From assembly GCF_010119195.1 (NCBI RefSeq), contig NZ_WRXL01000006.1, positions 1 to 64,000 on the forward strand: a stretch of 64,000 nt of DNA, given 5' to 3'. Positions 435-18,040 of the stretch are shown in pieces. Source of the stretch: Haloarcula salina (GTDB lineage Archaea; Halobacteriota; Halobacteria; Halobacteriales; Haloarculaceae). How positions within the stretch are numbered: the stretch's first letter is position 1; the number at the start of each line of letters is the position of its first letter. Below the pieces are notes generated by a model, which was not told the DNA's origin, ran no database searches, and saw only the letters and a list, made by a program, of their open reading frames with translations. A program made the translations under genes and the position numbers.

Positions 435-1226
435 CTACGCCCAGCCAGCCTCCCGACGCATCACATCATCACGGAGATCCTCTATCGTCTCCACAATGTC
501 AGCTTCTTCCATCATTTCTACACGTCGCACCGTCAGTTCTTCCCGGAGTAGTGTTGTCGTCCGACTCACAATGTCACTATTTGACGGTGGATCGTCGTAT
601 GGGACCTCTTCCTTGACTTCGTTCAGTGTGTCGTGACAGAGGAGATCACCGCAAGCATGTGTGACGGGAACATACCGTGCGAAATTGTGGTCCAGAAGGT
701 CATTTGCAAGTTCCTGAAAACCGAGGACTTGCTTCGTTCGGCTATAGTCTTGATCCTCAACCTCTCCCGATTCACCCTCCTCGTATGTGAGCTCGGCACC
801 CCACCAGATTCGGTGAAGGGCGTTGGAGTAAGCGTCGGTCCCAGCCTTCAGGAACTTCTCTTCCATATTTCCCGGGCTTTCCGGATTGAAGACGTGATCC
901 CACCGGTAGTGAACGAACTCCGGAAACCGTATGACACAGAGGTAGTGCCATAGCCCGGCATCTGCTGCCTCGTTACGTGTCAGGTCAAGAGTGCAGTGGA
1001 GTGTCTGCGCTAGCTCGGCATCAATGAGTGAGTCCTGAGCGTCAATTTCGTCGTCGGCACGGATCTCCTCAATCCGCTCGTCCACCGGGCTAAGATCTAT
1101 AGATCGGCCCAGTGGCTGTAAGTACGGGCGGAGATCTTCTTCTGTGAGATCACGCTCGCCCGCGAGGAATCGATTGTCGATCATCGGATGGGCTGCACTC
1201 TGAAGGTGATAAAGCTCAGTCGTCAC
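435..1226 (-). CDS. DUF6339-like protein, third gene of triad A
   Basis: Third gene of a three-gene operon, overlapping the 3' end of the gene before it by 11 nt. The 263 residues contain a core shared with 13110-13799 and, more weakly, 14148-14948. An L-D-L-T-R motif is followed by a G-L-W-H-Y segment, then R-F-P-E-F-V-H-Y-R-W, then A-Y-S-N-A-L-H-R-I-W-W and a later A-R-Y-x-P segment. I relate this to the DUF6339 family from memory; no biochemical role is known to me. No signal peptide, membrane segment or nuclease motif is visible. The aromatic-rich core suggests a folded alpha-helical protein. Its job is inferred only from constant linkage to a GHKL ATPase. Confidence 0.75.
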   Translation of the reverse strand: MTTELYHLQSAAHPMIDNRFLAGERDLTEEDLRPYLQPLGRSIDLSPVDERIEEIRADDEIDAQDSLIDAELAQTLHCTLDLTRNEAADAGLWHYLCVIRFPEFVHYRWDHVFNPESPGNMEEKFLKAGTDAYSNALHRIWWGAELTYEEGESGEVEDQDYSRTKQVLGFQELANDLLDHNFARYVPVTHACGDLLCHDTLNEVKEEVPYDDPPSNSDIVSRTTTLLREELTVRRVEMMEEADIVETIEDLRDDVMRREAGWA

Positions 1227-2286
1227 TCTGGATCGCCTCCTCGATCAGGTTCGTCGTATCGGACGGGATGTCGTACTGCTGATGCACTGCACGTTCGATC
1301 CGCTGAACGAGGTCTGGGATATCGACGTGACTTCGAACGTCCTCGGCGAGTTGAATCTTCGCCTCGTCATCATCAAGACCTGGGTACAAATCGTCTAGGA
1401 AGATGTCCAATACGTCTTCCTGCCAACTGTACTCTGGTTCACCCGTATCAGGGCTCGTGTCGCGTGCCGTCTGCATCAGTAGTTGCGTCCAGACAGAGTG
1501 TTCGACGTAGTCGTATAGTACGTCGCGCAGCCGGGGTGGTCCACCTGTCGGTCCTGTATTATTCAGAACGTTGATCACTTGTGGATGTCCCTTGTTCAGG
1601 TACAGCTGTGGGTTCCGAGGTGCCTCCAAGCTGAGGTAGTGAATATGGTTCTCGTCGGGGAAGCGGTCGTAGTCGCTGAAGTCCTCGATGATCGGCATGA
1701 GAAGGCTCCCGCCGTCATCCCTCTCGTCAAGTCGAATAATCCACGAGATTCCGTCAGCGACTCGTGCGCCGACCTTGGAGGCGTGCTTCGATCCACTGGA
1801 ACCGCTTCTCTCAGTTCTGGTGAGGAACGGCTTGATTTTCATTCGTCCACGGTGGTCGTCACGTTTGATGCACAAGGTGAATTCGTGAGTTCCTCCATCC
1901 AGCGGTGAGTCGGCGAGTATTTGCCGGTCTCGACTCATTGCGAGTGGATTCTCCTTCACCAATGCGAGGCGACCTGGCGTCTCTTCCCACTCGTCGAACG
2001 GGAAAACTTTCTCGACAGTATCTTGGTCAATGGTAACCGTGCCTTCTAACTCCAGAGTCTCCCAGTTACCTTCGTCCACCAACGACAAATACTGGTCGTC
2101 CTCGTTCAACTCTCCTCTTTCTCCGAGAGAGGCTCCATCTAGACGGAAAGATCCGACATCGAAATCGAGCGCCTCTTTCTTGTATTCGTGTGGGAGGGAT
2201 TGGCTTACTAAACTACCTGTCTGGACGTCTTCTTCCTCTTCTTCGTCCGGTTCAGTCCCTTCGACTCCCTCGTTGACAGTCGCCAT
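1216..2286 (-). CDS. Unrecognised middle protein of triad A
   Basis: The 356-residue protein belongs to no family I recognise. Its ATG overlaps the stop codon of the upstream ATPase gene by one base, so the two are probably translationally coupled. The paralogues at 12071-13108 and 14945-16021 share its layout: an early H-E-Y-K-K-E-A-L-D-F-type start, a beta-rich middle with R-P-Y/F-L-x-R-T, then a segment reading H-Y-L-S-L with P-x-L-Y-x-N-x-x-H-P about 120 residues from the end, and a V-W-T-Q-L-L helix with W-Q-E and L-Y. An acidic D/E-rich N-terminal tract is haloarchaeal in style. It could be an adaptor between ATPase and effector, but that is inference. Confidence 0.75.
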   Translation of the reverse strand: MATVNEGVEGTEPDEEEEEDVQTGSLVSQSLPHEYKKEALDFDVGSFRLDGASLGERGELNEDDQYLSLVDEGNWETLELEGTVTIDQDTVEKVFPFDEWEETPGRLALVKENPLAMSRDRQILADSPLDGGTHEFTLCIKRDDHRGRMKIKPFLTRTERSGSSGSKHASKVGARVADGISWIIRLDERDDGGSLLMPIIEDFSDYDRFPDENHIHYLSLEAPRNPQLYLNKGHPQVINVLNNTGPTGGPPRLRDVLYDYVEHSVWTQLLMQTARDTSPDTGEPEYSWQEDVLDIFLDDLYPGLDDDEAKIQLAEDVRSHVDIPDLVQRIERAVHQQYDIPSDTTNLIEEAIQSDD

Positions 2287-4175
2287 TACTTGTCCCTCCG
2301 TTCTGCTACGTCAACAGATACTTTTATTCTGGTCTCGACTTGTCTGTGATCCTCCGTCGACACACCCTCAAAGGAGATCTTCGATGTGCCAGAAGTTGGC
2401 TCCAGCCGGCCCACTTGGACTCCCTTCTGCTCTGGGAGCGATATCGATACTCCGGTCGTATCTGACGAGATATTCTGTACGGGGAGACGATCGGAAGTAG
2501 CTCTCTCCTCTGCCATCCGAATCAGTGAGACGGTGATCGCCCGGATCTCGTTACGGTCGCTCAAAGGCTCGACCTCACCGCTGAATGACCAATGCGTGTA
2601 CACCTCGTCGAACGAGATATCTGTGTCTCCCGTGACACGCTGGCTACTGGGTGACTCACGATCTGAACGTCCCCCTCGTGATTCGTTTCCGATCTTGAAC
2701 CGGTTTCCTAGACGCTGAGGTCCGGTCGTGCCTCGATCTACTTCGGGTGCGACGAGCCCACGTAACGTCTCGGTCACGTCAGACTTGATACCCTCTACTG
2801 CGGTCCGGAACCCCCGAGAGTAGGTGTTTGCTAGTGTCTCTGTTCGCACCCACTCGTCGTGTTGAGGCGGCTCTGCAGCGGTCAAGAATTCCTCTACGAT
2901 GGTTTCTGCTTCTCCTGGACTCTCATCCGTTCCCCACGGCCGCGCACGTCCCCCGAGAAGGACTCCGTGGAAGTCCTGGTTCCCGACGACGACTCGGTCT
3001 CGGTCGTAGTACTCAACGACCATCCCCGCACCTCGGATGAACGCCACTTCGTTCCGATGCTGATACTCACCTGTATCTGCACGTCGCACCAACAAATCGA
3101 GTTGGCCATCTACACCGCCACCACCGCCGCTCTTTTCTGGTACGTCAAGTGGTATGGCAGCCTGCGCGACATCCTCGGGTTCGTTCAGCTGGCTGACTGA
3201 GTACTCACGGTCGTCCAGACAGTTCGTGAAGGGCTTGTATTGAGGATACTCGTCGATACTTGCTTGTCTCGTCTCACCCTCCACTTCTACTGCTACCTCC
3301 AGGTCGCCACGGTAAACGGCCGGCCAGAACCACTCGATTGCCATCTCCGTGATCTGATCCGCTAATTCTCCGTCGTCCAGTCGCTCTTCCGCTGTAGGTA
3401 CGCGGAAATCCACGACTTGTATGCTTGTTCCTGGTCCGTCTGAACGACTCAACTGAAGGCTGTCTGCTATCGATCCGGCTTCATCGCCCCAAATGGACTC
3501 CGGTCTCGCACCCTCTTCGTCGTGGCTCAGACTACCGTACCAACCGTGCCCTTGATATACCGTATCGCCGTCCTCCGACTTGTGTGTCGGCAAGCGCGTC
3601 CGACCGATCAATCGAGGGGATTGGTCTGTCGGGTTAGGTTCGCTCAGCGTGGAGTTGAACATGACGAGCGATAGGCCTGAGTACAGCCAGAGGACAGCTT
3701 TCCCTAAACCATAACTTCCACCGGCGGTGTCTCCCGACTTGCTACTGAATAGAACGTCTCGGACCAGAGCAGTGAAGTTTGATTCGTCGGCGTTTTCTTC
3801 ACCGAGGAGCCCCTCCGTGTTCTCATCCTCAATAGTCAGAATACGGATCTCTTCATCGTTTTTTATGCGTTCAATCGCCTCAACGATGTGTTTGCCGCTC
3901 TTCGTGTCTGTCGCTAAATTAGCGTGCTTGGACCACGTTTCGATATCAAGTATTTTGAGATACTCTATCGCCTCGTCGCCCTGTAAGGATTCCAGCTTGA
4001 AGGTGACTTGTGCCGGCTGCTCGTTGTCCAACCGAGCGTCGTTCGAGTTTTGCAGGACCTCACGAACGAAGGTCTTCAGCCCTGGTTCACCGTGTGACAT
4101 CGCGTACTTTGCGACGTCGTCGCCGTATCGTGCATCAGTCGGTCGAGAAGTGGTGAATCCCCACTCACCGGTCAT
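2286..4175 (-). CDS. GHKL (Bergerat-fold) ATPase, first gene of triad A
   Basis: About 629 residues if started at the ATG at 4175, which a TATA-like box at 4209-4217 favours over an in-frame ATG 18 nt upstream. The N-terminal third has GHKL motifs: N-box F-V-R-E-V-L-Q-N-x-N-D-A (residues 36-47), E-D-E-N-T-E-G-L (116-123) and A-G-G-S-Y-G-L-G-K (151-159). This pattern fits MORC/MutL/Hsp90-type ATPases rather than histidine kinases; there is no phosphoacceptor His domain. The C-terminal half is beta-rich and unassigned. GHKL ATPases of this kind occur in restriction-modification clusters, so an ATP-driven clamp or sensor role on DNA is plausible but inferred. Confidence 0.85.
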   Translation of the reverse strand: MTGEWGFTTSRPTDARYGDDVAKYAMSHGEPGLKTFVREVLQNSNDARLDNEQPAQVTFKLESLQGDEAIEYLKILDIETWSKHANLATDTKSGKHIVEAIERIKNDEEIRILTIEDENTEGLLGEENADESNFTALVRDVLFSSKSGDTAGGSYGLGKAVLWLYSGLSLVMFNSTLSEPNPTDQSPRLIGRTRLPTHKSEDGDTVYQGHGWYGSLSHDEEGARPESIWGDEAGSIADSLQLSRSDGPGTSIQVVDFRVPTAEERLDDGELADQITEMAIEWFWPAVYRGDLEVAVEVEGETRQASIDEYPQYKPFTNCLDDREYSVSQLNEPEDVAQAAIPLDVPEKSGGGGGVDGQLDLLVRRADTGEYQHRNEVAFIRGAGMVVEYYDRDRVVVGNQDFHGVLLGGRARPWGTDESPGEAETIVEEFLTAAEPPQHDEWVRTETLANTYSRGFRTAVEGIKSDVTETLRGLVAPEVDRGTTGPQRLGNRFKIGNESRGGRSDRESPSSQRVTGDTDISFDEVYTHWSFSGEVEPLSDRNEIRAITVSLIRMAEERATSDRLPVQNISSDTTGVSISLPEQKGVQVGRLEPTSGTSKISFEGVSTEDHRQVETRIKVSVDVAERRDK

Positions 4176-4208
4176 TACGACACCCCACCGCAATTAGTGA
4201 GTCTGAAC

Positions 4209-4313: not shown

Positions 4314-5837
4314 TCAGAACTGTGAATTTGGAGGAGTACCAGTGGCCAAGTAGTGTGCGCCGACGAGATCGTGGCGGATCTCACTAAGTTCACGCGACCG
4401 ACGTTGTGTATCCGTGCTTAACCCTTCAAGAGCAACGACAGAGAAACGAATGCCGTCACCAAATTCGTTCCGTCGTTTGAATAGACGACTTGATATGGAT
4501 CCGGTTGTTCCGATTTCTTCGAGAGTTTGGCCCCACCGTTTCTCTGTTTCTTCCCGCCACAGTCGAAACGCGTGTACACCGGTACTGTCGATTGTATCTC
4601 TCTCAGAGAGCGGGTGGCTCTCAGTCCAGTTGAGTCCCAACCAGTTTTCGCCGGTCACGTCACGCCAAGGCTGCCACGACGGGGCGGTATACGAGGATCG
4701 TTCTGCGACGTCCTTTAGCTCTTGATGCAACTTGCTGTGGCGGCCGCTCACGTGTTCAACTGGCTCTCGGTTCAGTTGGACCATAGGAGTCCAACCCATC
4801 TCTCGCCGACAAATGGCCACGAGGGTTGACTCAATTGCACGCCGGTGTCTCCTGTTCGGCGATATCGGAGGTGTCGTGACAGAGACCTCCATCTTACCTC
4901 CCGTAATCTCAGCGATTTGCCAAAGGCCACGAGCAGCGCCGTGTTTGTCTCCAGTCGGCCGATCCGATTCTATCATTCCCGCTGACAGATCAAACCCTAC
5001 GCGCTGCCGAACGCCTCCCTCTGACCCCGACTCCCCGACGTACATCAAACCTGGGAGTTCTGAATGTCGAACTCGGTAGAGACCTGGGCGACGTTGTAGT
5101 TCCTTACGCAGCGTTTCGCGGTCCTGAAGGTCAAACCATCTCGACCATTCGAGTCCCATCCACATCTGGGATTGAGGTTCCGGCTCAAGACGGGAGAGTG
5201 GTCCAGGGACGTCTAGGGTTCGTGTTTCTGCCGCGCTCCGTCGTGTAGCCCGATCAACGGTAGCGAGTTCAGACTGAACGATGGGTTTGGAGATCGAGAG
5301 TAAACGGGCAATTGCGTCACTACCTGGGACGTGCTGTGAGAGGATCCATATCGTCACTTGCCGATTCGTCAGTCTGGTCCTGCCCGCCACCGCTACGATG
5401 TCGTCAATAGCGGCTGGCGGAAACTCGGAACACGAGACGACGAACCCACTACTGCCTCTCTCTTCTCTATCTCCAACCACTTTTTGGACCTGCCGGTCGT
5501 GAGCGGTCGCTGCGGCATCACGACCGGCTTCGGTGAGTCCGATTTGACTGGCAACAGCGTCCCAACATCCGTCTCGCTCGACTAATACGTACAACAGCCC
5601 GTCGTCACTCCTTCCTACCGGGAGAGGGTCGAAGCCCGTAAAGAGTGTCTCAGCGTCAATGACCGACGCATTTCGTACTTCTCGAAGGGCTCTGGCAAGT
5701 GAGCCAGCCTCGATGGAATACTGAGTTGCGACAGACTTGACGATGTCACGGGATACAGGCACCCCTACGAACGGATCTCCTACGTACGACGTGTTAGACT
5801 CCCGGTCCAAATACACGTGACACTCGTCGTCGCTCAT
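4314..5837 (-). CDS. Tandem GIY-YIG nuclease with HTH-like region
   Basis: A 507-residue protein. A GIY-YIG core starts near residue 251: P-G-L-Y-R-V (251-256), then L-M-Y-V-G-E-S (264-270), an Arg at 278-279, a probable catalytic Glu in A-I-E-S-T-L (about 336) and an Asn near 355. These match the order Tyr, Tyr, Arg, Glu, Asn of the superfamily, which includes restriction enzyme Eco29kI. A second copy follows: W-L-G-L-N-W at about 399 mirrors W-M-G-L-E-W at about 226, but G-V-H-A-F lacks the active-site tyrosines, so it looks degenerate. Residues about 155-195 resemble a helix-turn-helix. Its start overlaps the stop of the methyltransferase-like gene by 4 nt, the layout expected of a restriction-modification pair. 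Confidence 0.75.
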   Translation of the reverse strand: MSDDECHVYLDRESNTSYVGDPFVGVPVSRDIVKSVATQYSIEAGSLARALREVRNASVIDAETLFTGFDPLPVGRSDDGLLYVLVERDGCWDAVASQIGLTEAGRDAAATAHDRQVQKVVGDREERGSSGFVVSCSEFPPAAIDDIVAVAGRTRLTNRQVTIWILSQHVPGSDAIARLLSISKPIVQSELATVDRATRRSAAETRTLDVPGPLSRLEPEPQSQMWMGLEWSRWFDLQDRETLRKELQRRPGLYRVRHSELPGLMYVGESGSEGGVRQRVGFDLSAGMIESDRPTGDKHGAARGLWQIAEITGGKMEVSVTTPPISPNRRHRRAIESTLVAICRREMGWTPMVQLNREPVEHVSGRHSKLHQELKDVAERSSYTAPSWQPWRDVTGENWLGLNWTESHPLSERDTIDSTGVHAFRLWREETEKRWGQTLEEIGTTGSISSRLFKRRNEFGDGIRFSVVALEGLSTDTQRRSRELSEIRHDLVGAHYLATGTPPNSQF

Positions 5838-6610
5838 CGGAACTCGTCTAACTGGCGATTGTCCTCGCTTTTGCGCTTAGTGTCCATCCGCTCGTCGTAG
5901 TCGGAGTAGTCAACTCGACCTTCCGAGATTCCTTGCTCGTCCTCGTACACCATCAACCACAACCGAATCAGATAGTAAATGTACGGTGCTGGTATTGCGT
6001 TTTTTGCCAAGTGACTCTTCGGATACGGTCCCGGCGGATAGTTCTTGACGGCTGCCCACCACTCTCTGGAACGTTCGGAGAAGAAGAACGACGAAGTCTC
6101 GGCCTTATCAGAGGCACCATCTGTGGTCAAGAGCCGCTTCTCACGGGGGGGCTGTGGAACTTTGAACGAAGTTTCGAACGCTCGCTCGTACTCAATCGGC
6201 ATACCGAACATCCGTCCGTTAAGAATGGCGGGGTCATTGAGTGGTGCGCGCGGAACGTTTTCGATTATGTAGTGGTCACAGTACTTCTCTGAGAGCATCC
6301 GGGCACTCGGGATCATGTTTTCGTGCTTGTCGGGGTCTCCCGAGATGCTCGTCGTCGCCGCCCATCGGGAACAGACCGGATGGAACAGCCCTAAATCGAA
6401 CGTAACATCGTCCTTGACCGGGAGATCCCACTCCTTTTCCTTGATGTGGGCATCTGCTTTGACCGGTGTGCTCTCGTTCGTGTCTTTTGGGTCAATTCCG
6501 ACACGAATTACGTTCCCGAAGTCGCTGAGAACCTCTGACTCCGTCCCATAGTCCGCGAAACAGTGGAGGATGAGCGGCTCTTCGTGTTTCAATTCATCGT
6601 CCGAGGTCAT
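5834..6610 (-). CDS. Short C5-methyltransferase-like protein
   Basis: 258 residues. An N-terminal Rossmann start (L-H-C-F-A-D-Y-G, 15-22) stands where motif I lies. F-H-P-V-C-S-R-W-A (76-84) carries the Cys of motif IV in a phage-type P-x-C context, and I-I-E-N-V-P (115-120) matches the ENV motif VI. Motif VIII and the target-recognition region are short or unclear, and no normal motif X follows. Compact C5 methylases of this kind are seen in phages. It is first in a two-gene operon with the GIY-YIG protein (4-nt overlap), so I read it as the protecting methylase. It could instead have lost activity. Confidence 0.65.
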   Translation of the reverse strand: MTSDDELKHEEPLILHCFADYGTESEVLSDFGNVIRVGIDPKDTNESTPVKADAHIKEKEWDLPVKDDVTFDLGLFHPVCSRWAATTSISGDPDKHENMIPSARMLSEKYCDHYIIENVPRAPLNDPAILNGRMFGMPIEYERAFETSFKVPQPPREKRLLTTDGASDKAETSSFFFSERSREWWAAVKNYPPGPYPKSHLAKNAIPAPYIYYLIRLWLMVYEDEQGISEGRVDYSDYDERMDTKRKSEDNRQLDEFR

Positions 6611-6907
6611 ACGGTATCACCCAATTCATACGCAGCGCCCTGGGTTCTATTGAGAGAACACTGCGCCGAGCACGTCCGTGTAGAGTCCGCGTAGATTGTC
6701 ACTGTTGTGCGCTTAGACAGTGGTTCAATTTAAACTCACCATCTGAAAACGATTCTCAGGTCTGGTTCAATACAGTCAGGTGTTTGGACCCCTCGTATAG
6801 TGACGAATTCCAGTGGTAGTACTGGACAACACGCAAAGATTTCTACAAAACCACCTTATTTCAAATACTTTCAATAAAGCCAAATATGTTCTTGATGTAT
6901 CTATCAT
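6611..6907. promoter_or_regulatory. Divergent promoter region
   Basis: 297 nt without a gene between the minus-strand methylase-like gene and the plus-strand nuclease gene. It becomes very AT-rich near its right end. A T-T-C-A-A-T-A-A-A block at 6870-6878 lies about 33 nt before the nuclease ATG and is a reasonable TATA candidate. The nuclease is therefore transcribed separately from every methylase in the island. Confidence 0.45.
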
Positions 6908-8092
6908 ATGAGTCAGGGTGATGTCTTCCCGAACGATGGACTTGATCGGGCAGATCTGGTAGTTGACGCAGTGTATAAAGGAGGAAGTGAATCCAACCTT
7001 GCCGCGGCAACTCTTCCAGACCTACTGAACGTAGGAAATTCTGGCGGGTTCAGAAAAGCAACCTGCCAGGCAGGATCTGTAGATCTCTCTTACGTTGTCC
7101 TCTTTCACAACGCCAGTGAACCAAGCTGGCCTGATAAACTTGATCCAGAGAGTGGTATCTTCACCTATTTTGGCGACAACAGAAAACCAGGATCACGCCT
7201 TCACGAACCGCCAGGAAACAAATTTCTCAGAAAAGCATATGAATCTCTCCATAACGGAGAACGAACTGATATCCCCCCAATTTTAATCTTCAGTGCAACG
7301 GGTGAGGGCTATGATAGACGGTTCAGGGGACTCGCGGTGCCAGGAACACAGACTGGAAATCAATCTGAGGACCTAGTTGCAGTCTGGAAGAACAAAAGAG
7401 GAGAGCGGTTCCAGAATTACAGAGCTCGTTTTACCATCTTGGATGTCGCTCAAGTCTCCAGAGAGTGGATTGAAGATCTAGAGGAAGGCAATTGCGACAC
7501 AGATAACGCTCCCGACGTGTGGCTAAAGTGGCGTGAAACCGGAACGTACACACCGTTGAAGGCTGAGCGAACGAAAGATCATCGGTCAAAAGAACAGCAA
7601 CTACCATCAACACCTCTGCAAGAACAGATCCTAAAGACTGTATATTCACGGTATACCGAGAACCCGACTGACTTTGAGTACGTCGCCACTGCTATCTTTG
7701 AGTTGATGGACGACAACGTCGGCAACAATGAGATCACACGAGAGACGAGAGATGGAGGCATTGATGCGACTGGTAAGTACAATATTAGTCCCGCATCAGG
7801 GCCAGATAGTGACACTCTCGTAGTAGAATTCGCGTTAGAGGCAAAGTGCCACCATCCAGATTCTGGCAACGGAGTGAGGGAGATTAGTCGGCTTATCTCT
7901 CGACTCCGCCATAGGCAATTTGGCGTCTTTGTGACAACCTCTTATCTCGCCAAGCAAGCCTACAAAGAGATCAAGGAAGACGATCATCCAGTCTTAGTTC
8001 TAAGTGGAGGTGACATCGCCGAGATCCTAATTGAGAATGGATTCGAAACAGAGCAAGCGGTTAAGCAATGGTTAGATCGGCAAGAATACTAG
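6908..8092 (+). CDS. AspBHI-type modification-dependent restriction endonuclease
   Basis: 394 residues with two recognisable parts. Residues about 15-145 resemble the AspBHI N-terminal SRA-like domain, which in AspBHI/MspJI-type enzymes reads 5-methylcytosine; the hallmark is W-P-D-K-L-D-P-E-S-G-I-F-T-Y-F-G-D-N (74-91) followed by K-P-G-x-x-L-H and G-N-K-F-L-R. The C-terminal part is an Mrr-like PD-(D/E)xK nuclease: R-D-G-G-I-D (281-286) and E-A-K (311-313) form the active site. It stands alone with its own promoter and is visibly more AT-rich than its neighbours, which suggests separate acquisition. Whether it truly needs methylated DNA here is unknown, since two C5 methylase genes lie beside it. 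Confidence 0.8.
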   Translation: MSQGDVFPNDGLDRADLVVDAVYKGGSESNLAAATLPDLLNVGNSGGFRKATCQAGSVDLSYVVLFHNASEPSWPDKLDPESGIFTYFGDNRKPGSRLHEPPGNKFLRKAYESLHNGERTDIPPILIFSATGEGYDRRFRGLAVPGTQTGNQSEDLVAVWKNKRGERFQNYRARFTILDVAQVSREWIEDLEEGNCDTDNAPDVWLKWRETGTYTPLKAERTKDHRSKEQQLPSTPLQEQILKTVYSRYTENPTDFEYVATAIFELMDDNVGNNEITRETRDGGIDATGKYNISPASGPDSDTLVVEFALEAKCHHPDSGNGVREISRLISRLRHRQFGVFVTTSYLAKQAYKEIKEDDHPVLVLSGGDIAEILIENGFETEQAVKQWLDRQEY

Positions 8093-8219
8093 GCGCAACT
8101 GTGTCAATTTGAGTGGTTGGCACCTATTGAAAGAAAGACCTAACTGATGGACGATCGGGCTGTGAGTTCAAGGAACGAAGCCGCGTCGAAACTGGTACGA
8201 GGACAATGATTTTGTAGCG

Positions 8220-8855
8220 CTATCCATAGCTTTCCGACTCAATGAAGTAGGCGCAATACTCGTTGGCGAAACACTGTTTACACAGCGGTTCGGACTGGCA
8301 AACCAGCGCACCGAAATCAAGCAACGCGAGATTGTACGCACGGGCCTCGTCAGGAACCAACCTCTGCGTGAAAGTCAGCTGATCCGCTTCTGTTTCGGGC
8401 CACCTGTCTCGAAATACCCGCCTGTACACTCTCTCAACGTTCCTATCCAGTACCGGCAACCGGTCGCCACGGGCGAAGCACAGCGTGGCGTTCGCCACGT
8501 ACTGGCCCACTCGCGGAAGTGCCATCAGTGATGCTGGTTCAGTAGGGAGATGATCGTGTGTTGAGGCAATCTGTTTCAGTGCCGCTGCGCGCATATTTTG
8601 GAATCCGAGAGGTTCAACAACTTCAACGAGCTCATCCTCAGTGGCCTCCGCTATCACGTCCAGGGTGGGGAATTGCTTCAGGAAGCCTGGATAGACCGCT
8701 GCTACGTTTCCAGCTGGTGTCTGAGTCAAGAAGAACTCCGCTACGAACACCTCGTACAGCGTTCGGTTCAACTCGCGCCACGGGTACTCACGGCGGTTCT
8801 TCTGACCCCATTCAAGCAAATTCGTTCGAAACCGGCGCTCTACCTCTGACAACAT
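8220..8855 (-). CDS. HhH-GPD DNA glycosylase, Mig-type (T/G mismatch)
   Basis: 211 residues of the endonuclease III/MutY superfamily. The helix-hairpin-helix is L-P-R-V-G-Q-Y-V-A-N-A (113-123), the catalytic Asp is D137 in P-V-L-D-R-N-V, and four Cys (186, 192, 195, 201) fit a [4Fe-4S] loop, though the first gap is five residues rather than six. Y119 sits where MutY has Ser and where the archaeal thymine glycosylase Mig.Mth has Tyr. The MutY C-terminal domain is absent. It lies 10 nt downstream of the C5 methyltransferase in one operon. Mig.Mth likewise accompanies a restriction methylase and repairs T/G mismatches from deaminated 5-methylcytosine; I infer the same role here. Confidence 0.85.
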   Translation of the reverse strand: MLSEVERRFRTNLLEWGQKNRREYPWRELNRTLYEVFVAEFFLTQTPAGNVAAVYPGFLKQFPTLDVIAEATEDELVEVVEPLGFQNMRAAALKQIASTHDHLPTEPASLMALPRVGQYVANATLCFARGDRLPVLDRNVERVYRRVFRDRWPETEADQLTFTQRLVPDEARAYNLALLDFGALVCQSEPLCKQCFANEYCAYFIESESYG

Positions 8856-8865
8856 CTGCTCTCAC

Positions 8866-9981
8866 TCAGTCGTCGGCGACAGAGGACTCGACAGACGGAG
8901 TCGCAGCCCCGACGTGCGAGAAGATTGCTTGTCCCATGTACTCACCGAGCTTTGGGGGGACCGCGTTACCGATCAATCGGCCCAAATTCGACACGCCGAC
9001 GTCTTCCCACTCATCGTAGAAGTCGTAGTCTTCCGGAAACGTCTGCAACAGAGCTCCCTCAAGCAGTGAGAGTGCCCGATTCTGGTCTGTATCGTAGTGA
9101 CCAAACCGACCGCTGCCGTAATTGTAGAACTGCGTCGTGATCGTCGGAGAGGGTTCGTCAGGTCGCATCCGGCTGTAGGGTGCTTTGTAAGAGCGTCCAC
9201 TCGCCTTCCGGTGGCAGTCCGCCAAGAGATGGTCGAGGCCATCCTCTTCCCAGAGAGTCCAATCTCCACCGGGTTCCATGTTATCGATACGCTCCAAGTT
9301 CTTTTCCGAGAGAGAACGTGCTCTATGCACGTCGTTCTCGTCGCTGACTTCCCCTGCTTCAAGTGATGTCAGGTGATCAATCGTGTCTTTGACCGTAGGA
9401 TAATCTTCCTCACTCTGAATCGGTGGGTCGGGTAGAGAGAGGGGTCCCCGCTTGGACGCCATAACTACCCATCGTTTCCGCTTCTGTGGGACCCCGTACT
9501 CCGGGCAGTAGACGTTCTTGTTCTCGTCACTGTTGACGTGGTAGCCCTGTGATTCCAAACTCTCAACGAACGCGTCGTAGACGCCGTCCTCTTGTTTCAC
9601 TTGGAGCACGTTCTCGGTGACCACCACGTCCGGCTCAACGTACTTTGCTATTCGTGAGACCTCGTTCAATAGCCCCCACTTTTGATGATCCTCGTGCCCT
9701 TTCCCCTTTGAGTGCCCCATCGTGGAATAGGGTTGGCAAGGCGCGCATGCCGCGAGTACCTTCAAATCTGCATCCCACGGGTACATCTGTGCGATTGGCT
9801 CTGGATTCTTTGCCAATGAGCGAATGTCTGCTCTGACGTATTTTCCGTCGATGTTCTGTTCGTATGGGTACTTACAGTCTGGATCTTTGTCGATCCCTGC
9901 GACGACAGATACACCAGATTGCTGGAGGCCATAACTGAGTCCGCCGGCCCCACAGAATAGATCCACTGCGGCTACCTTCAT
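8866..9981 (-). CDS. DNA (cytosine-5-)-methyltransferase
   Basis: 371 residues with the full set of C5 methyltransferase motifs: motif I D-L-F-C-G-A-G-G (7-14), motif IV with catalytic Cys82 in A-P-C-Q-P-Y-S, motif VI E-N-V (123-125), motif VIII Q-K-R-K-R (166-170), and motifs IX and X near the end (S-P-T-I-T-T-Q and G-N-A-V-P-P). It uses S-adenosylmethionine to methylate cytosine at C5 at a sequence that cannot be read from the gene. It is the first gene of an operon with the T/G glycosylase. Divergent from it is triad B, so methylase and triad may share a control region. Confidence 0.93.
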   Translation of the reverse strand: MKVAAVDLFCGAGGLSYGLQQSGVSVVAGIDKDPDCKYPYEQNIDGKYVRADIRSLAKNPEPIAQMYPWDADLKVLAACAPCQPYSTMGHSKGKGHEDHQKWGLLNEVSRIAKYVEPDVVVTENVLQVKQEDGVYDAFVESLESQGYHVNSDENKNVYCPEYGVPQKRKRWVVMASKRGPLSLPDPPIQSEEDYPTVKDTIDHLTSLEAGEVSDENDVHRARSLSEKNLERIDNMEPGGDWTLWEEDGLDHLLADCHRKASGRSYKAPYSRMRPDEPSPTITTQFYNYGSGRFGHYDTDQNRALSLLEGALLQTFPEDYDFYDEWEDVGVSNLGRLIGNAVPPKLGEYMGQAIFSHVGAATPSVESSVADD

Positions 9982-10172: not shown

Positions 10173-12074
10173 ATGGATCAGGAACAGATACAGATCAACG
10201 AAGCGGCCAAGTGGTTCTTTTTCAGTGGTGGACCAGGTGCCCCACGCTACGGCGACGATCCGACCAAACACGCCGTAGATCACGATTCGGAGGCATTCGT
10301 CCGTGAGGTCCTTCAAAATGCGAACGACCAAGGCCTTCCGAACGGCGATCCAGTCGAAGTGACCTTCCGTTTTGTCACGCTCACCGGTGACGAGAAAGAG
10401 GCATTCCTTGACGGACTCGGCTGGAACGACGGACTCGGCGAACGAATGCGATCGGTCGCGGACACACACAATGGCTATCGTTACGAACGGGTCGTCAAGC
10501 GAGTCAACGATCCGAATGCCGAGCTCAGACTGCTCGTCGTCGAAGACAGAAACACGACCGGATTGACTGGAAGCTGGGACGGAGATTCCAACTATGCCGC
10601 TTTGGTGCGTGACGAACTCTACAGCAGCAAACAAGACGACACCGCAGGCGGCTCGTACGGTCTAGGTAAGTCTGTACTCTGGACTTTCTCGGGTGCTTCG
10701 ACAGTCGTCTTCAATTCTCATCTCGCTAGCGAGCGTCAAGACGACTCGCCCCGTCTCATTGCACGTTCCAAGTTCCCCACACACCAACTCCAGGAAGACG
10801 ATACGACGTACCAAGGTGCGGGGTGGCTCTGCCAGCCAATAGAGACCGACGACGGTCCCCGTCCCGAGTCCTTCTGGGGAGAGCGCGCGTCGCGGCTCGC
10901 AGATCAACTGCACGTGGAACGACCCGCTGTCAGCGGAACGAGCGCTATGGTCGTCGAGTTCCAAGATCCGACGCGGGATGAGCGACCGGACGTCGAAGAC
11001 CTCGCACAGGAGTTCGTTGACGCATCTGTCAAGTACTTCTGGCCAGCAATATATCGGGATGATCTCGAAATCACGGTCGAAACACCCGACGAAACACTGA
11101 CCGCAGACGTCGAAAGCGTTCCGGCGATCCGCCCCTTCGTTGAGGCTTACGAGGAGAGGACTACAGATACTCAGACGTTAGTGGACCCTGGAGACGTTGC
11201 TGGACTGGATATCCCAGTCAATCTTCCGCCTCGTGCCGATGGAACCGAGACTCCCGACGGATCGGTTCGGTTGTCGACTCGCCTCGCATCTCCTGCGGAC
11301 GACGATTCTTATTTGAATAACATCGCACTGTTCCGAGGAGCGGGGATGGTGGTCAAGTACTACGACCAGAGTCGTGTCGCCTACGGTGACCGGAACTTCT
11401 TCGGCGTAATAGCTGCCGGCGAAGCGCGGTCGGAAGGGGCCCCCTCAGATAGTGATCGAGAGATCGACCGATTCCTGCGGTTCGCCGAACCGCCAGAACA
11501 CGACGAGTGGGAATCCACTGAGAATCTCCGTGAGCAGTACCAGCGTGGATTCCGGATGGCACTCGACGATATGTTCGGAACGCTGCGTGATGGGCTCCGA
11601 CACTTGATTTCGAAAGGTAGCAAAGGTGATTCCCTCTCCGACAACGTTCTGAACCGGTTTCCGATTCACGGGAGCGGGAATCCCCGATCCACGACGTCGC
11701 CCGCAGACCCTGTCTTCGAAATCGACAGTTCGTCTCGCTTCGACGGCGACGCGTGGGAGATCTCTGGCCGAATCAAAGTCCTCCCAGAAGAGTTCGATGG
11801 ATGGAGTGCCGACATCTCGCTCACCGGTGTTGGTGAGGACGGATCCCGTTACGCCGACATTCCAATCGACTACGTCGAAATCGAACAATCCGGCGTAACC
11901 GTATCGTACGACGACGGAAGTGTCCATCTCGTCGCCGATGAAGAATTCGATGAACTCTCGTTCTCGGGCCGTTCTCGTTCTGACGAACCTGCCGACTTGG
12001 TGCACGGTGACGTCGGTGCGACACAACTAGAGATACTCGCAGAGTTACAGACTCCGGAGGAAGATCAAGCGTGA
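10173..12074 (+). CDS. GHKL (Bergerat-fold) ATPase, first gene of triad B
   Basis: 633 residues, clearly paralogous to the triad A ATPase over the whole length. Motifs: N-box F-V-R-E-V-L-Q-N-A-N-D (42-52), V-E-D-R-N-T-T-G-L (123-131) and T-A-G-G-S-Y-G-L-G-K-S (157-167). Other shared segments are L-I-A/G-R-x-x-x-P-T-H, R-P-E-S-x-W-G, F-R-G-A-G-M-V-V-x-Y-Y-D in the middle, and A-E-P-P-x-H-D-E-W. The conserved Phe-Arg-Gly-Ala-Gly-Met block probably belongs to the transducer domain. The 3' end overlaps the next start by 4 nt. No nuclease or kinase domain is seen. The Bergerat ATPase assignment is safe; its action on DNA or phage is inference. Confidence 0.87.
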   Translation: MDQEQIQINEAAKWFFFSGGPGAPRYGDDPTKHAVDHDSEAFVREVLQNANDQGLPNGDPVEVTFRFVTLTGDEKEAFLDGLGWNDGLGERMRSVADTHNGYRYERVVKRVNDPNAELRLLVVEDRNTTGLTGSWDGDSNYAALVRDELYSSKQDDTAGGSYGLGKSVLWTFSGASTVVFNSHLASERQDDSPRLIARSKFPTHQLQEDDTTYQGAGWLCQPIETDDGPRPESFWGERASRLADQLHVERPAVSGTSAMVVEFQDPTRDERPDVEDLAQEFVDASVKYFWPAIYRDDLEITVETPDETLTADVESVPAIRPFVEAYEERTTDTQTLVDPGDVAGLDIPVNLPPRADGTETPDGSVRLSTRLASPADDDSYLNNIALFRGAGMVVKYYDQSRVAYGDRNFFGVIAAGEARSEGAPSDSDREIDRFLRFAEPPEHDEWESTENLREQYQRGFRMALDDMFGTLRDGLRHLISKGSKGDSLSDNVLNRFPIHGSGNPRSTTSPADPVFEIDSSSRFDGDAWEISGRIKVLPEEFDGWSADISLTGVGEDGSRYADIPIDYVEIEQSGVTVSYDDGSVHLVADEEFDELSFSGRSRSDEPADLVHGDVGATQLEILAELQTPEEDQA

Positions 12075-13108
12075 CCAGACACTCTCAACGCCACCGTACT
12101 ACGACACTTCCGTTCAGCTACCGGGAGAAAGGGGTAGACTTCGGTCTGGACTCGTACACCGTTGACGATGGGGAGCGAACAGCGATCCAACTGAATCCGT
12201 CTCAGACCGAGATCAACCTCGCATCGGCCGTATCGTCGTCTGCCAGTAGTGACGAGTCGGATTGGGACACCATTACTCTCCACGGGAAACTCCGCCTACC
12301 AGAGGAGACTGTACAGGCAGTCTTTCCAAAAGACGAGCGATCAGAGCCACCGGCCAAACTATACGTCACCATTCGCTGCCACGAGACGATCTATCGTGAC
12401 CGGGAGGTCATCTCCGAGACACCTACGACACCCGGAGAATACGACGTTGAGCTGGAAATTCCGAAAAGAACGGTCCGCGGGACTGTCGAACTGCGTCCGT
12501 ATCTCGTTCGCACCGAGACTCGTTCGGGAGAGGAACCGAACGACTACGCCGATCAGAAGAACTTCCGCGTCGCCAGTGGGACACTGTACTACGTCGAGGT
12601 GGACCGCTACGAGGGAGAAGAGCGAGCAGCCATCAATGGGGAGCGCGTCCGGTTCTCACAAAACGCTCACCTCCCAGATGGGAACAAGTTGTACTACCTT
12701 GATTTCCGGAACGAGAGCCGGCCAAAGTTGTGGATCAACTCCGACCATCCACGTATCGCCGAAGTACTACAGAGTAGGGGATCTGTCGGCGCAGAGGCTC
12801 GGATGCGTGACGTGATTCTGGACCAGGTGAGCTACGGTGTGTGGGTACAACTCCTTGTTCGGGCCGGGAGTGCTGTGGACGTAGAGAGCGAGGTTGAACA
12901 CGAATGGCAGGAGATGGTGCTTGAGACATTTGCGCGCAACCTATATGATACCAATAACGTATCGGAGGCGACCCGTCGGCTCAAGGAAGACCTCTCCGAC
13001 TTAGAGACTTTACCCCACGTGATACAGCGGATTGATAGCGAACTTCAGGAGTACATAGACCCTCGAGAACAATTAATCCACCTCATGGAGGAGGGCCTCC
13101 AGATCTAA
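12071..13108 (+). CDS. Unrecognised middle protein of triad B
   Basis: 345 residues from a GTG start that overlaps the ATPase stop (GTGA). It matches the triad A protein in order and motif: F-S-Y-R-E-K-G-V-D-F near the start, L-R-P-Y-L-V-R-T-E in the middle, then L-Y-Y-L-D-F, P-K-L-W-I-N-S-D-H-P and G-V-W-V-Q-L-L with a following H-E-W-Q-E-M. The first half looks beta-rich and the second alpha-helical. I recognise no catalytic triad, zinc site or ATP-binding motif. Its fixed place between the ATPase and the DUF6339-like gene in all three sets argues for a structural part of one complex. Confidence 0.75.
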   Translation: MTRHSQRHRTTTLPFSYREKGVDFGLDSYTVDDGERTAIQLNPSQTEINLASAVSSSASSDESDWDTITLHGKLRLPEETVQAVFPKDERSEPPAKLYVTIRCHETIYRDREVISETPTTPGEYDVELEIPKRTVRGTVELRPYLVRTETRSGEEPNDYADQKNFRVASGTLYYVEVDRYEGEERAAINGERVRFSQNAHLPDGNKLYYLDFRNESRPKLWINSDHPRIAEVLQSRGSVGAEARMRDVILDQVSYGVWVQLLVRAGSAVDVESEVEHEWQEMVLETFARNLYDTNNVSEATRRLKEDLSDLETLPHVIQRIDSELQEYIDPREQLIHLMEEGLQI

Positions 13109-13109
13109 C

Positions 13110-13799
13110 GTGACCGAGACAGAACTACGACGACTGACCGAAGACGGACGCCGCCTCGTCGGTGAAGCGTTCATGAAAGGCGAGGCGACACTAACCGATG
13201 AACAGTTGAATGAGTACCTAGAGCCCATGCCGGGTCATCCGACAGCTGACCTGGATAGAATTGACTCGGCGGTAAAAGATGTGCTGGCGGAGGGCCCAGA
13301 TCACAAGACCGCTATCGATGGCTTACTCGCTGAAGACGTTCATCGCAGCCTGGACATTACAAGACGGACCGCCGGTGACCCGGGTCTCTGGCATTGGCTA
13401 GCAGTTGTTAGGTATCCCGATCTCGTTCGATATCGCTGGGAGTATCGTTCCGAAGAGGCGATGAGAGAGAAGTTCCTCGGTGCGGGCTCCGACTTGTACT
13501 CAAACGCTCTCCACCGGCTATGGTGGATCGCAGAACTAACTTCTCGGGGCGACGATTATTCTACGACAGATGCGGTCTTCGCCAATCAAACGATGGTCAA
13601 CAAAGTGTTTGACCGCTGGTTCGCACGTTATCAACCCGCCGTTAGAGCCATGTGCGACGAACTCGCAGACGAACCGTCGCGTGTTATTGACGAGACGACA
13701 CGTCGATTTAATCACGCACTGACGAACGTACAACTTGAAGGACTATCAGAGAATGACGCGCGGAAGATGATTCGACAAATTGTCGCTGAATCCCACTAA
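13110..13799 (+). CDS. DUF6339-like protein, third gene of triad B
   Basis: 229 residues from a GTG one base after the preceding stop codon. The core repeats that of triad A: H-R-S-L-D-I-T-R-R-T (about 71-80), G-L-W-H-W-L-A-V-V-R-Y-P-D-L-V-R-Y-R-W, M-R-E-K-F-L-G-A-G, L-Y-S-N-A-L-H-R-L-W-W and W-F-A-R-Y-Q-P. The many Trp/Tyr/Arg positions are the best conserved part of the whole triad, so this is probably its functional heart, perhaps binding a nucleic acid or a partner. I know no activity for this family. The A and B copies are closer to each other than either is to C. Confidence 0.75.
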   Translation: MTETELRRLTEDGRRLVGEAFMKGEATLTDEQLNEYLEPMPGHPTADLDRIDSAVKDVLAEGPDHKTAIDGLLAEDVHRSLDITRRTAGDPGLWHWLAVVRYPDLVRYRWEYRSEEAMREKFLGAGSDLYSNALHRLWWIAELTSRGDDYSTTDAVFANQTMVNKVFDRWFARYQPAVRAMCDELADEPSRVIDETTRRFNHALTNVQLEGLSENDARKMIRQIVAESH

Positions 13800-14147: not shown

Positions 14148-14948
14148 TTATGACTTGCTAGCTTTGATCGACTTCTCTACCTCACTGCGGATATTACGAA
14201 TCGTCTCTTCCAGATCAGACTTCCGCTGCCCCTCGTATGGGAAGACCGAGCCAGACTTTCTGAATCGCTTGATTGTCTCATCAATGACTTCGTTCTCTGC
14301 CAACTCCCCATCCTCGTCGTCGTCCTCCGGTTCGTCGTACAATACTTTGAGTAGGGCCCTCACTGCCGGTTCGTACCGTGCCATCGGCGTGTCGAACACC
14401 AGTAGCGAGAACCGTCGCTTGCTGAGTGCACGTCGAGTAGGTTCGTAGTCTACGCTCCCATCACCCTTCTCTTCACACGTTAATTCGGCGATCCACCACG
14501 CACGCTCGAAAGTACTGGCTTTCCCGTCAAGAGCTCTGGCCTGTGTCCAGAACTTCTCTTTCATCGCAGAGACGCTGTTGAACGCCCACCGATGGTCTAC
14601 AAACCACGGGTAGTACAACATCGCGAAGGCGCTCCAGAGCCCCGAATCAGACGCTTCCGCCCGACTCAAATCAACGTTGCGGTGGATGATGACGGCCGAC
14701 TCCGGATCCGCCTGCGCGGTTTCCGGGGTAGTGTCCGCTGCGAGCTCTCTCAATTCCTCTTCCAGCGTCGCTAAATCGGCTGTCAACCCGGCTGACTGGA
14801 TGTGTGGTTTCAGTTCCGAATGAGGGATGCTGTCGTGGTTGCCACGGAGGAACTCATCGTACTTACTGAGCAGACTCTGTGCCCCGTCTGCGAGTCTGAC
14901 CAGCTCCTGTCCGTCCTCCAGATCCGCGTTGGGATCCCAATCGTTCAT
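14148..14948 (-). CDS. DUF6339-like protein, third gene of triad C
   Basis: 266 residues, starting 4 nt inside the preceding gene. The family core is present but diverged: H-R-N-V-D-L-S-R-A-E-A-S-D-S-G-L-W, then Y-P-W-F-V-D-H-R-W, M-K-E-K-F-W, F-E-R-A-W-W-I-A-E-L-T and M-A-R-Y-E-P. The N-A-L-H-R segment of the A and B copies is altered to S-T-F-E-R. This is the most divergent member of the three. An acidic tract (D-E-D-D-D-E-D) lies near residue 220. Role unknown, tied to its GHKL ATPase by position only. Confidence 0.7.
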   Translation of the reverse strand: MNDWDPNADLEDGQELVRLADGAQSLLSKYDEFLRGNHDSIPHSELKPHIQSAGLTADLATLEEELRELAADTTPETAQADPESAVIIHRNVDLSRAEASDSGLWSAFAMLYYPWFVDHRWAFNSVSAMKEKFWTQARALDGKASTFERAWWIAELTCEEKGDGSVDYEPTRRALSKRRFSLLVFDTPMARYEPAVRALLKVLYDEPEDDDEDGELAENEVIDETIKRFRKSGSVFPYEGQRKSDLEETIRNIRSEVEKSIKASKS

Positions 14949-16021
14949 CGGTCACCCACCCGCTGTGCGTGGTTACTAACCTGCTCGGCAGGCTCTAGCA
15001 GTCCTTGGACTGCCTGGTCAATCCGCTCTGTCGCGGCCATGGGGCTCTCCCCCAGTTCTTTTTGTAGCGACTCTGCAGCTTTCGGTGGAGACTTGTCCTC
15101 TCCTTCGTACAGATACTCGCTCAACATCTCAAACACCGCTGGGTGCCACTCTGGGGTCCACTCGTCGGCGTCGGGATCGTACTCGTCAGCAGCGACCTGG
15201 GTCATCCTGGCCCAGACCGGCGTCATCACTTGATCCCAGATCAGTTCGGCTGTGAGATCGTCGTAGGTGCCATCACCGTTCCACACAATGTCAACCACCT
15301 GCTCGTGATCTTCGTTGAAGTAGAGGACAGGATTGTTCGGATCTCGCTTCAAGTCTAAGTAGTACATTCGATCAGCTGGCGGGAACGGGGTCTCGTCAGC
15401 CTCGTTCTCTCGCTCAAACGATGTCCGTTCAACTTGTAGGACATCGTCGCTCCCCGGTTCATGCTCGGTGATCTCAATCCGGCATTCACTACCGTCAGAG
15501 AGGAGGGCTCCTGGCTCTGTCGCGTAGTCGTGTCCCGATCCCAACCCGAGCGACGATTCCGTTTCCGATTTGAGGGGCTTGGACCGGAGGAGGTAGGGAC
15601 GGAGAACGAGCCTATCCGCTATGTCATCTTCGGAGATTGTGAGCGTGTCGTCTACCGTTCCAGCACTGACTTCGTCTCCGTTGTTCAGGACCGTCCCTGC
15701 TCGCGTGTATGTACTGACACAGTGGCCAGCAACGACGACGTTCGCGGGCCCTTCGTCTGGGGGGTCAACCACGGTGCTCTCTCCGATCTCGGGGAGGACA
15801 TCACCGAGGAGCGAATCTGGAACGTCCACACAGAGAGTGAACTCAATCTCCGACCAGCCTTGGTACTCGGTGAGGTCAAGCCGGCGGTCATCTTCCGGTT
15901 GGACGGCCTCGTCACCGTCAACTGAGTACTCTTTGATCCAGAAGTTGAGCTCGCCCAATTCACAGTGGTGGGGGAAGGTCTCGTACTTGAGTGAGCGGTT
16001 GAGTTTGATCGTGCTGGGCAT
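14945..16021 (-). CDS. Unrecognised middle protein of triad C
   Basis: 358 residues. It keeps the shared landmarks of the middle proteins: a start with F-P-H-H-C-E-L-G-E-L-N-F-W, L-R-P-Y-L-L-R-S in the middle, M-Y-Y-L-D-L-K with P-V-L-Y-F-N-E-D-H-E-Q-V, and V-W-A-R-M-T-Q-V-A with W-H-P-A-V-F. It sits 2 nt after the ATPase stop and overlaps the DUF6339-like gene by 4 nt, so the operon is tightly packed. No known domain is recognised. The three homologues differ enough that the duplication is not recent. Confidence 0.7.
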   Translation of the reverse strand: MPSTIKLNRSLKYETFPHHCELGELNFWIKEYSVDGDEAVQPEDDRRLDLTEYQGWSEIEFTLCVDVPDSLLGDVLPEIGESTVVDPPDEGPANVVVAGHCVSTYTRAGTVLNNGDEVSAGTVDDTLTISEDDIADRLVLRPYLLRSKPLKSETESSLGLGSGHDYATEPGALLSDGSECRIEITEHEPGSDDVLQVERTSFERENEADETPFPPADRMYYLDLKRDPNNPVLYFNEDHEQVVDIVWNGDGTYDDLTAELIWDQVMTPVWARMTQVAADEYDPDADEWTPEWHPAVFEMLSEYLYEGEDKSPPKAAESLQKELGESPMAATERIDQAVQGLLEPAEQVSNHAQRVGDR

Positions 16022-16023
16022 GT

Positions 16024-18027: not shown

Positions 18028-18040
18028 TATAATGCCCAAC

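Follow-up and report, generated by a model that had tools for sequence, protein, structure and literature searches.

We found that the gene at 6908-8092 of the window, by which we mean the whole 64,000-nt stretch of Haloarcula salina DNA analysed here, is predicted to encode a modification-dependent nuclease of the AspBHI type that keeps its 5-methylcytosine (5mC) pocket, and that it lies close to a C5 cytosine methylase gene with complete catalytic motifs. The reading that we favour, with a probability of roughly 0.6, is that an intact 5mC-dependent nuclease spares the methylation context of its host and attacks 5mC standing in foreign contexts; what the analysis shows is the gene itself, its fold, the residues of the pocket and of the catalytic site, the cargo slot, the motifs of the methylase and the linkage across the family, and the nuclease activity, the promoter of the gene, the compatibility of its motif with that of the methylase and the complementary role of the enzyme are what we infer. 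The tension with a resident C5 methylase, already pointed out in a sequence-only reading of this DNA, is real. The nuclease gene comprises the following features:

6820..6907, forward strand: AT-rich upstream stretch (30.7% GC), presumed nuclease promoter, missing from the aligned empty islands (composition)
6908..8092, forward strand: predicted AspBHI-type modification-dependent restriction endonuclease (Pfam, PADLOC, PDB, AlphaFold2 model)
7004..7543, forward strand: N-terminal SRA-like domain, PF18062, residues 33-212 (Pfam)
7103..7186, forward strand: 5mC-pocket segment, residues 66-93 (residues of PMC4499157 mapped by alignment)
7202..7216, forward strand: shortened Loop-6C, H99-E-P-P-G103 (alignment column counts)
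7661..8026, forward strand: C-terminal Mrr-type catalytic domain, PF04471, residues 252-373 (Pfam and column counts)

In the ORF listing, an ATG-start frame coincides exactly with 6908-8092 on the forward strand and encodes 394 aa with no internal stop. Pfam matched RE_AspBHI_N at residues 33-212 (E = 1.7e-59) and Mrr_cat at residues 252-373 (E = 5e-12), PADLOC matched mREase_II at 477 bits over near-complete length, and among PDB entries the best match was AspBHI (4oc8, E = 7.9e-95, residues 7-390), followed by LpnPI (4rzl, 2.2e-44) and MspJI (4f0p, 2.6e-22). The assignment to the AspBHI type, made earlier from the letters alone, is thus confirmed by all three collections. No other gene of the host genome matches PF18062, and a search of genome contigs for a close relative with the nuclease protein alone as query returned no match. 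An AlphaFold2 model, built on an input alignment of 51 sequences (the window protein and related loci), reached a mean pLDDT of 86.5. VIA-align superposed it on AspBHI 4oc8 with a Z score of 37.4 and an overall rmsd of 18.5 Å, which is large because the two domains are set at a different angle, and on LpnPI 4rzl with a Z score of 31.0 and 1.8 Å across 218 residues; the MspJI structure was also matched by VIA-align and Foldseek, while matches outside the MspJI family were interpreted at the level of SRA and PD-(D/E)xK folds. Residues D282, D286, E311 and K313 (codons 7751-7846) are the same in all 87 aligned rows. The protein therefore carries what characterizes the MspJI/AspBHI family, namely an SRA-like N-terminus, an Mrr-type PD-(D/E/Q)xK domain with its catalytic residues and a 5mC pocket. 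It resembles AspBHI, LpnPI and MspJI in its two-domain architecture, pocket, catalytic D..ExK and full-length alignment, but it is archaeal, its Loop-6C is shorter and has no equivalent of R98, and its Loop-B3 reads G-N-S.

The AspBHI pocket consists of N63, W69, D71, Y82, Y83, G84, D85 and R87 (PMC4499157). The corresponding residues of the window nuclease in the alignment are N68, W74, D76, Y87, F88, G89, D90 and R92, among which W74, D76, Y87 and D90 do not vary in any of the 87 rows, and phenylalanine in place of AspBHI Y83 is also found in MspJI (F115). The comparison with AspBHI and MspJI that had been proposed as a check thus found the residues kept, and a lost pocket, named there as part of a refutation, is ruled out by the presence of W74, D76, Y87, G89, D90 and R92. 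The differences lie in the loops. Loop-6C contacts the bases upstream of 5mC. Measured from H to G, this loop has 5 residues in the window nuclease against 7 in 76 of 87 rows, and it is equally short in six rows (three haloarchaeal orthologues, L101, L102 and L159). The position of LpnPI R98, a residue whose change to alanine leaves 0.03% of the activity (PMC4499157), has no counterpart in the alignment, and Loop-B3 (G-N-S) is nearer to that of LpnPI (G-N-M) than to that of AspBHI (S-R-Q). The shortened Loop-6C suggests an altered upstream context, and with the pocket kept and this loop changed, reading of 5mC would be expected to persist in such an altered context. AspBHI itself prefers S immediately before 5mC (PMC4499157), and enzymes of the MspJI family accept 5-hydroxymethylcytosine (5hmC) as well (PMC3874153).

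The nuclease gene stands in an island made up of the following features:

435..4193, reverse strand: first triad (PDC-M33C, middle gene, PDC-M33A; PADLOC)
4314..5837, reverse strand: 507-aa island protein conserved alongside MT258, no family assigned (ORF list, Pfam, island comparison)
5834..6610, reverse strand: MT258, divergent C5-methylase-like protein (PHROG, hhalign, motif alignment)
6611..8219, no strand: variable cargo slot between the glycosylase and MT258 genes, 1609 bp in the window (island comparison)
6700..6722, reverse strand: inverted repeat CACTGT-N11-ACAGTG in the MT258 upstream region, immediately following a TTTAAA box (island alignment)
8220..8855, reverse strand: HhH-GPD DNA glycosylase, 211 aa, Mig.Mth-like (PF00730, PADLOC, PDB 1kea)
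8866..9981, reverse strand: C5 cytosine DNA methyltransferase, 371 aa, catalytic motifs complete (PF00145, PADLOC, profile alignment)
10173..13799, forward strand: second triad, adjoining the C5 methylase in the island (PADLOC)

The methylase at 8866-9981 matched PADLOC DrmMII with 855.7 bits over 371 of 371 positions, has M.HaeIII as its nearest solved structure (1.8e-13) and is the single PF00145 match in the host genome. It lies 774 bp from the nuclease, with the glycosylase gene intervening, and is also kept in nuclease-free islands. The description of the nuclease as standing between two C5 methylase genes consequently holds in part: the gene on the right is a genuine methylase, although separated by the glycosylase gene, whereas the gene on the left, MT258, is degenerate and unmatched by PF00145.

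The glycosylase matched PF00730 (E = 1.2e-12), the Mig.Mth structure 1kea (1.5e-27) and the PADLOC nicking endonuclease model. It is MutY-related, scoring 142 bits with the mutY model against a cut-off of 286.5, and combines the HhH-GPD fold with absence of the MutY C-terminal domain, as expected of a Mig/TDG-type enzyme; by resemblance it would be of the T:G/U:G mismatch type. The close neighbourhood of glycosylase and C5 methylase resembles the arrangement in Methanothermobacter, where the Mig.Mth gene is paired with a 5mC methylase gene, except that the pair in the window belongs to an island with a mobile cargo slot. Complete methylase motifs with a Mig-type glycosylase alongside would be sensible if the DNA of the host carries 5mC.

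MT258 matched no family at E 0.1 in Pfam (PF00145 included), NCBIfam or PADLOC. It matched the PHROG annotation 'DNA methyltransferase' at E = 0.0075 and was colinear with the C5 methylase profile at an hhalign E of 0.0077 and a probability of 5%. Its motif I departs from FxGxG, reading FADYG in 11 of 13 rows and FADEG or FADKG in two, while the motif IV cysteine (C80, in HPVC) and the motif VI pair E117 and N118 (in ENVP) are invariant in all 13. Folded alone it reached a pLDDT of 33, and a PDB profile search returned only chance matches to immunoglobulin-binding proteins. We rejected MT258 as a plain second C5 methylase on the missing PF00145 match and the 5% profile probability; its methylase activity is doubtful, and it might bind DNA rather than methylate it. 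The TTTAAA box and the inverted repeat, with about 50 bp on each side, are conserved in most aligned islands and occur as a single copy in the window. This stretch, the presumed promoter and operator of the MT258 side, was left undisturbed by insertion of the nuclease.

Three triads of the PADLOC candidate type PDC-M33 (435-4193, 10173-13799 and 14148-18039) occur in this one island, with mutual identities of 25-38%. Each is made up of an ATPase-like A gene, a middle gene that no model matched and a C gene (DUF6339 in the first triad), and relatives of the island contain up to four such triads within 20 kb.

Of 391 genomes searched in the class, 31 contain the methylase at E 1e-60. We fetched 20 of the islands that carry it; counting the window, 12 islands share 88-100% methylase identity. 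All 12 contain the methylase, MT258 and M33-type triads, and 11 each contain the glycosylase (not found in L077) and the 507-aa protein (not in L079). The slot between glycosylase and MT258 is variable: it is empty in four islands, holds other cargo in seven and holds the nuclease in the window only, so that the nuclease was rejected as a fixed component of the island. In the empty islands L072, L075, L076 and L079, which have no ORF of at least 130 aa at this place, glycosylase and MT258 point in the same direction 204, 219, 263 or 278 bp apart, while the window nuclease lies between them in the opposite direction. The other cargo comprises an extra triad in L069, L073 and L078 (with one more gene in L069), an ApeA-type HEPN protein in L070 (11629-12996), a GHKL-type ATPase and a further gene in L077, where the slot spans methylase to MT258, and small genes without assigned function in L071 and L074.

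The GC content of the nuclease gene is 48.3%, against 53.8% for 5834-6610, 55.2% for 8220-8855, 55.0% for 8866-9981 and 57.3% for the window; only 3.9% of 1185-bp segments are as low. The lower GC noted earlier was therefore borne out, and together with the variable slot, occupied by the nuclease in one of 12 islands, it indicates that the gene is probably a late single-gene insertion, as the sequence-only reading had supposed. Since both neighbours are on the opposite strand and 6820-6907 is AT-rich, the nuclease gene presumably has its own promoter; a promoter scan built for bacterial promoters, and thus ill-suited to archaea, gave one site against 1.9 expected by chance.

PF18062 occurs in 52 of 391 haloarchaeal genomes, in most cases joined to an HNH or a distant Mrr-type C-terminus, and orthologues of the window nuclease were found in two of them only (G045, 61% identity, and G269, 60%). 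One has no PF00145 gene in its genome (G269) and the other has an unlinked one, which suggests that the haloarchaeal branch needs no methylase partner. PF18062 was as frequent in genomes with the window-type methylase (4 of 31) as in those without it (48 of 360; P = 1). When any PF00145 gene was counted, 34 of 52 PF18062 genomes had one, compared to 154 of 339 others (odds ratio 2.27, P = 0.011); these P values are rough, the genomes not being independent. Avoidance of C5-methylase genomes by PF18062 was consequently rejected in favour of a mild positive association, and there is no sign of mutual exclusion in the 391 haloarchaea. Among the other haloarchaeal PF18062 genes, five of another type (G187:C6, G034:C4, G349:C4, G233:C5 and G207:C1) lie 14-16 kb from a C5 methylase (760-795-aa frame), as if these pairs were parts of one recurrent island. 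A second haloarchaeal group (L033-L038) has an Mrr-like C-terminus and is 27-31% identical to the window nuclease; proteins of this group were found in 10 of the 30 haloarchaeal PF18062 loci retrieved.

Other members of the family pose the same paradox, with strong linkage to C5 methylases. We collected the best 80 of 218 genome relatives by similarity together with five from viral contigs, giving 85 AspBHI-like loci (66 clusters at 80% identity), and searched their flanks, up to 10 kb long and in some cases shorter, with a C5 methylase profile, discarding matches below 80 bits. A methylase lay within 1 kb of the nuclease gene in 34 of 85 loci (27 of 66 clusters), and in 29 of the 74 loci with at least 1.5 kb of flank on both sides. 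The first kilobase held 34 methylases in 164.3 kb searched and the remainder (1-10 kb) 19 in 1272.7 kb, that is, 0.207 against 0.0149 per kb, a 14-fold difference. PF00145 genes were present in 43 of the 45 genomes of these loci for which they were counted, and because such genomes mostly carry one to three, chance adjacency is negligible. The co-occurrence check suggested earlier thus gave a divided answer: the nuclease accompanies the methylase island in one of 12 cases, while AspBHI-like genes at large often have a methylase next to them.

Many of the adjacent methylases are of one kind. All 21 flank methylases with a SPECT or SPECS motif IV lay within 1 kb of an AspBHI-like gene, with gaps of 10-136 bp in 13 of them, and the catalytic cysteine was retained in 16 of 16 aligned. 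Genomes with SPEC methylases numbered three of 172 in one class (E <1e-100) and four of 244 in one order, with an index genome counted once in each; among the five non-index genomes, three have a PF18062 gene within about 100 bp on the same strand (one pair broken by stops) and two have no PF18062. A tree of 87 rows places 32 of the 34 methylase-adjacent pairs in a single clade of 38 rows, and clustering of the adjacency labels exceeds that in all 500 shuffles. The window nuclease falls outside this clade, in a well-supported set of nine rows with the haloarchaeal copies, L101, L110, L111, L113, L114 and L155. A Mig-like glycosylase was found in L101 and L114 only among the 85 loci, both in the clade of the window nuclease. 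A homologue on a Priestia aryabhattai plasmid has dcm, a MutH/Sau3AI-type gene and a DUF6339 triad as neighbours, so the neighbourhood of nuclease, methylase and triad arose in bacteria too. In two further loci (L091 and L092), bacterial homologues of the window methylase (45-47%) have as partners a DUF262 protein and an HEPN-like nuclease of the MAE_28990/MAE_18760 type.

Part of the family is embedded in DISARM loci. With drmA and drmB queries taken from L101 and L155, which PADLOC confirmed as DrmA and DrmB, both genes were found in the examined flanks of 16 of 85 AspBHI-like loci (14 of 66 clusters). One arrangement runs NERD-helicase, drmA, drmB, C5 methylase and nuclease in one direction (L100, L106 and L154), or the same without the methylase (L105 and L155); in the other, the nuclease directly precedes drmA and drmB (L130, L158, L160, L171, L172 and L174), a PLD protein carrying an HxK(x4)D motif coming next in most of these loci, and L158, L171 and L174 have a methylase 44-46% identical to that of the window 7-8 kb upstream. 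The bacterial loci L100, L106 and L154 are contiguous operons with a SPEC-type methylase in which a PLD-type drmC was not found, and represent a DISARM variant. L101 and L155, DISARM loci themselves, belong to the clade of the window nuclease. DrmB occurs in six of 172 genomes of one class, and PF18062 accompanies it in the index genome but in none of the five others, a point against a general link.

DISARM uses its methylase to mark self, and DrmAB favours unmethylated DNA, the methylated context of one such system being T-mC-G (PMC9142583). The window resembles class 2 DISARM (DrmMII, DrmA, DrmB and DrmC) in its full-length DrmMII methylase and through a drmB-like gene in the examined flank of five of the 11 other close islands (L071, L072, L074, L075 and L076), which shares 91-100% identity with the DUF1998 gene that adjoins the island of a Halomicrobium urmianum plasmid (L071). 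It differs in having M33 triads instead of DrmA and DrmB, neither of which was found in the window by tblastn; the single MZB match of the host genome is a 1125-aa frame on another contig. We therefore rejected the window as a DISARM locus despite the DrmMII match, and its methylase would be DrmMII-like by descent, with no DISARM core around it. The related proposal that nuclease and triads jointly police the state of methylation loses ground in haloarchaea, where the gene does not track the island (one of 12; for all PF18062 proteins taken together, 4 of 31 against 48 of 360 genomes), but is live for the family, whose bacterial members are linked to C5 methylases and DISARM.

How the nuclease and the methylase might coexist can be outlined as follows. 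The gene of an AspBHI-branch nuclease would have entered a haloarchaeal defence island, one that uses 5mC as its self mark, by insertion into the variable slot; it would have come as a single-gene cargo and brought along the AT-rich stretch upstream of it. The SRA-like domain of the nuclease would flip out 5mC, or 5hmC, in a short context, and the Mrr-type domain would cleave the DNA a set distance away. The host would survive because the one C5 methylase that it has methylates in a context that the nuclease refuses, and the targets would be incoming DNAs with 5mC elsewhere, owing to foreign methylases or in modified viruses, so that the island would cover both unmarked and wrongly marked DNA. 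Of the three options offered by the sequence-only reading, a host motif that the nuclease does not recognize agrees best with the data, with the two-residue shortening of Loop-6C as a hint, and reviewers of these enzymes expect selection to spare co-resident methylases (PMC3874153). BREX with BrxU provides a parallel, a self-marking system and a modification-dependent nuclease forming complementary layers in one island (PMC8565348), and a nuclease for 5mC in another context would stop invaders from escaping through over-methylation, much as BrxU does for BREX. The BREX mark, however, is N6-methyladenine, which BrxU ignores, whereas mark and target in the window are both 5mC, so that a rule of sequence context is needed. 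Weighing against the favoured reading are the single occurrence of the nuclease among the 12 close islands, the two haloarchaeal orthologues that have no linked methylase, the finding of no PF18062 in the five non-index genomes with DrmB and the lack of a DISARM core in the host.

Other explanations must be weighed against this one. A nuclease of normal AspBHI-like specificity would be harmless if the island methylase were silent or inactive in the host, for which there are precedents, since the MspJI gene adjoins a cytosine methylase gene thought to be inactive (PMC3874153) and a silenced archaeal 5mC methylase is on record (PMC10609329). We nevertheless hold this to be unlikely: all catalytic motifs are present in 8866-9981, and its 88-96% identity over 371 aa in the 11 other islands, from several families of the class, with the glycosylase kept alongside in 10 of them, looks like use. 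It is also quite improbable that the SRA-like domain ignores plain 5mC and reads another mark, such as 5hmC or a bulkier viral base. The shorter Loop-6C with the lost R98 position and the acceptance of 5hmC by MspJI-family enzymes (PMC3874153) point that way, but the residues holding the 5-methyl group are all kept in a protein that aligns with AspBHI end to end, and the sequence-only suggestion of a changed target drew support limited to that loop.

Two further possibilities appear very unlikely to us. The methylase could mark invading or replicating DNA during infection for destruction by the nuclease, with the chromosome spared through repression or protein cover, and the tight association of SPEC-motif methylases with AspBHI-like genes would suit such a conditional system; the window nuclease, however, belongs to a different clade, and the Mig-type glycosylase beside its methylase suggests lasting methylation. 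Equally, the nuclease gene could be a passenger swept in with other cargo and not expressed or inactive, as its low GC and its presence in one of 12 islands might be taken to mean. Against this, the 394-codon frame is open, pocket and catalytic residues are complete, and an identity of 60-61% to the two other haloarchaeal copies speaks for a gene that decay would otherwise have eroded.

Beyond the window, we tentatively consider it possible, though doubtful, that a large AspBHI-type branch constitutes the second half of 5mC-marking systems, both C5 methylase pairs and DISARM. The marking side would condemn DNA without the self mark and the nuclease would condemn 5mC in other contexts, so that only the exact self pattern would pass, and the window gene would be an independent recruitment into a DISARM-related M33 island. 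Modification-dependent enzymes are called unpaired in one review (PMC12707154), and a recent survey of DISARM-type helicases names PLD, PD-(D/E)xK and Vsr nucleases; in the mostly open-access literature searched, neither the presence of AspBHI-like nucleases in DISARM operons nor a family-wide pairing with methylases was found described. The linkage to methylases and to drmA and drmB raises the question of how a 5mC writer and a 5mC cutter coexist side by side. If exclusion by context is true, each linked pair would be a natural experiment on the specificity of the SRA loops, and the haloarchaeal copy would be a particularly simple example, in which a single methylase meets a single nuclease and islands with an empty slot serve as natural controls.
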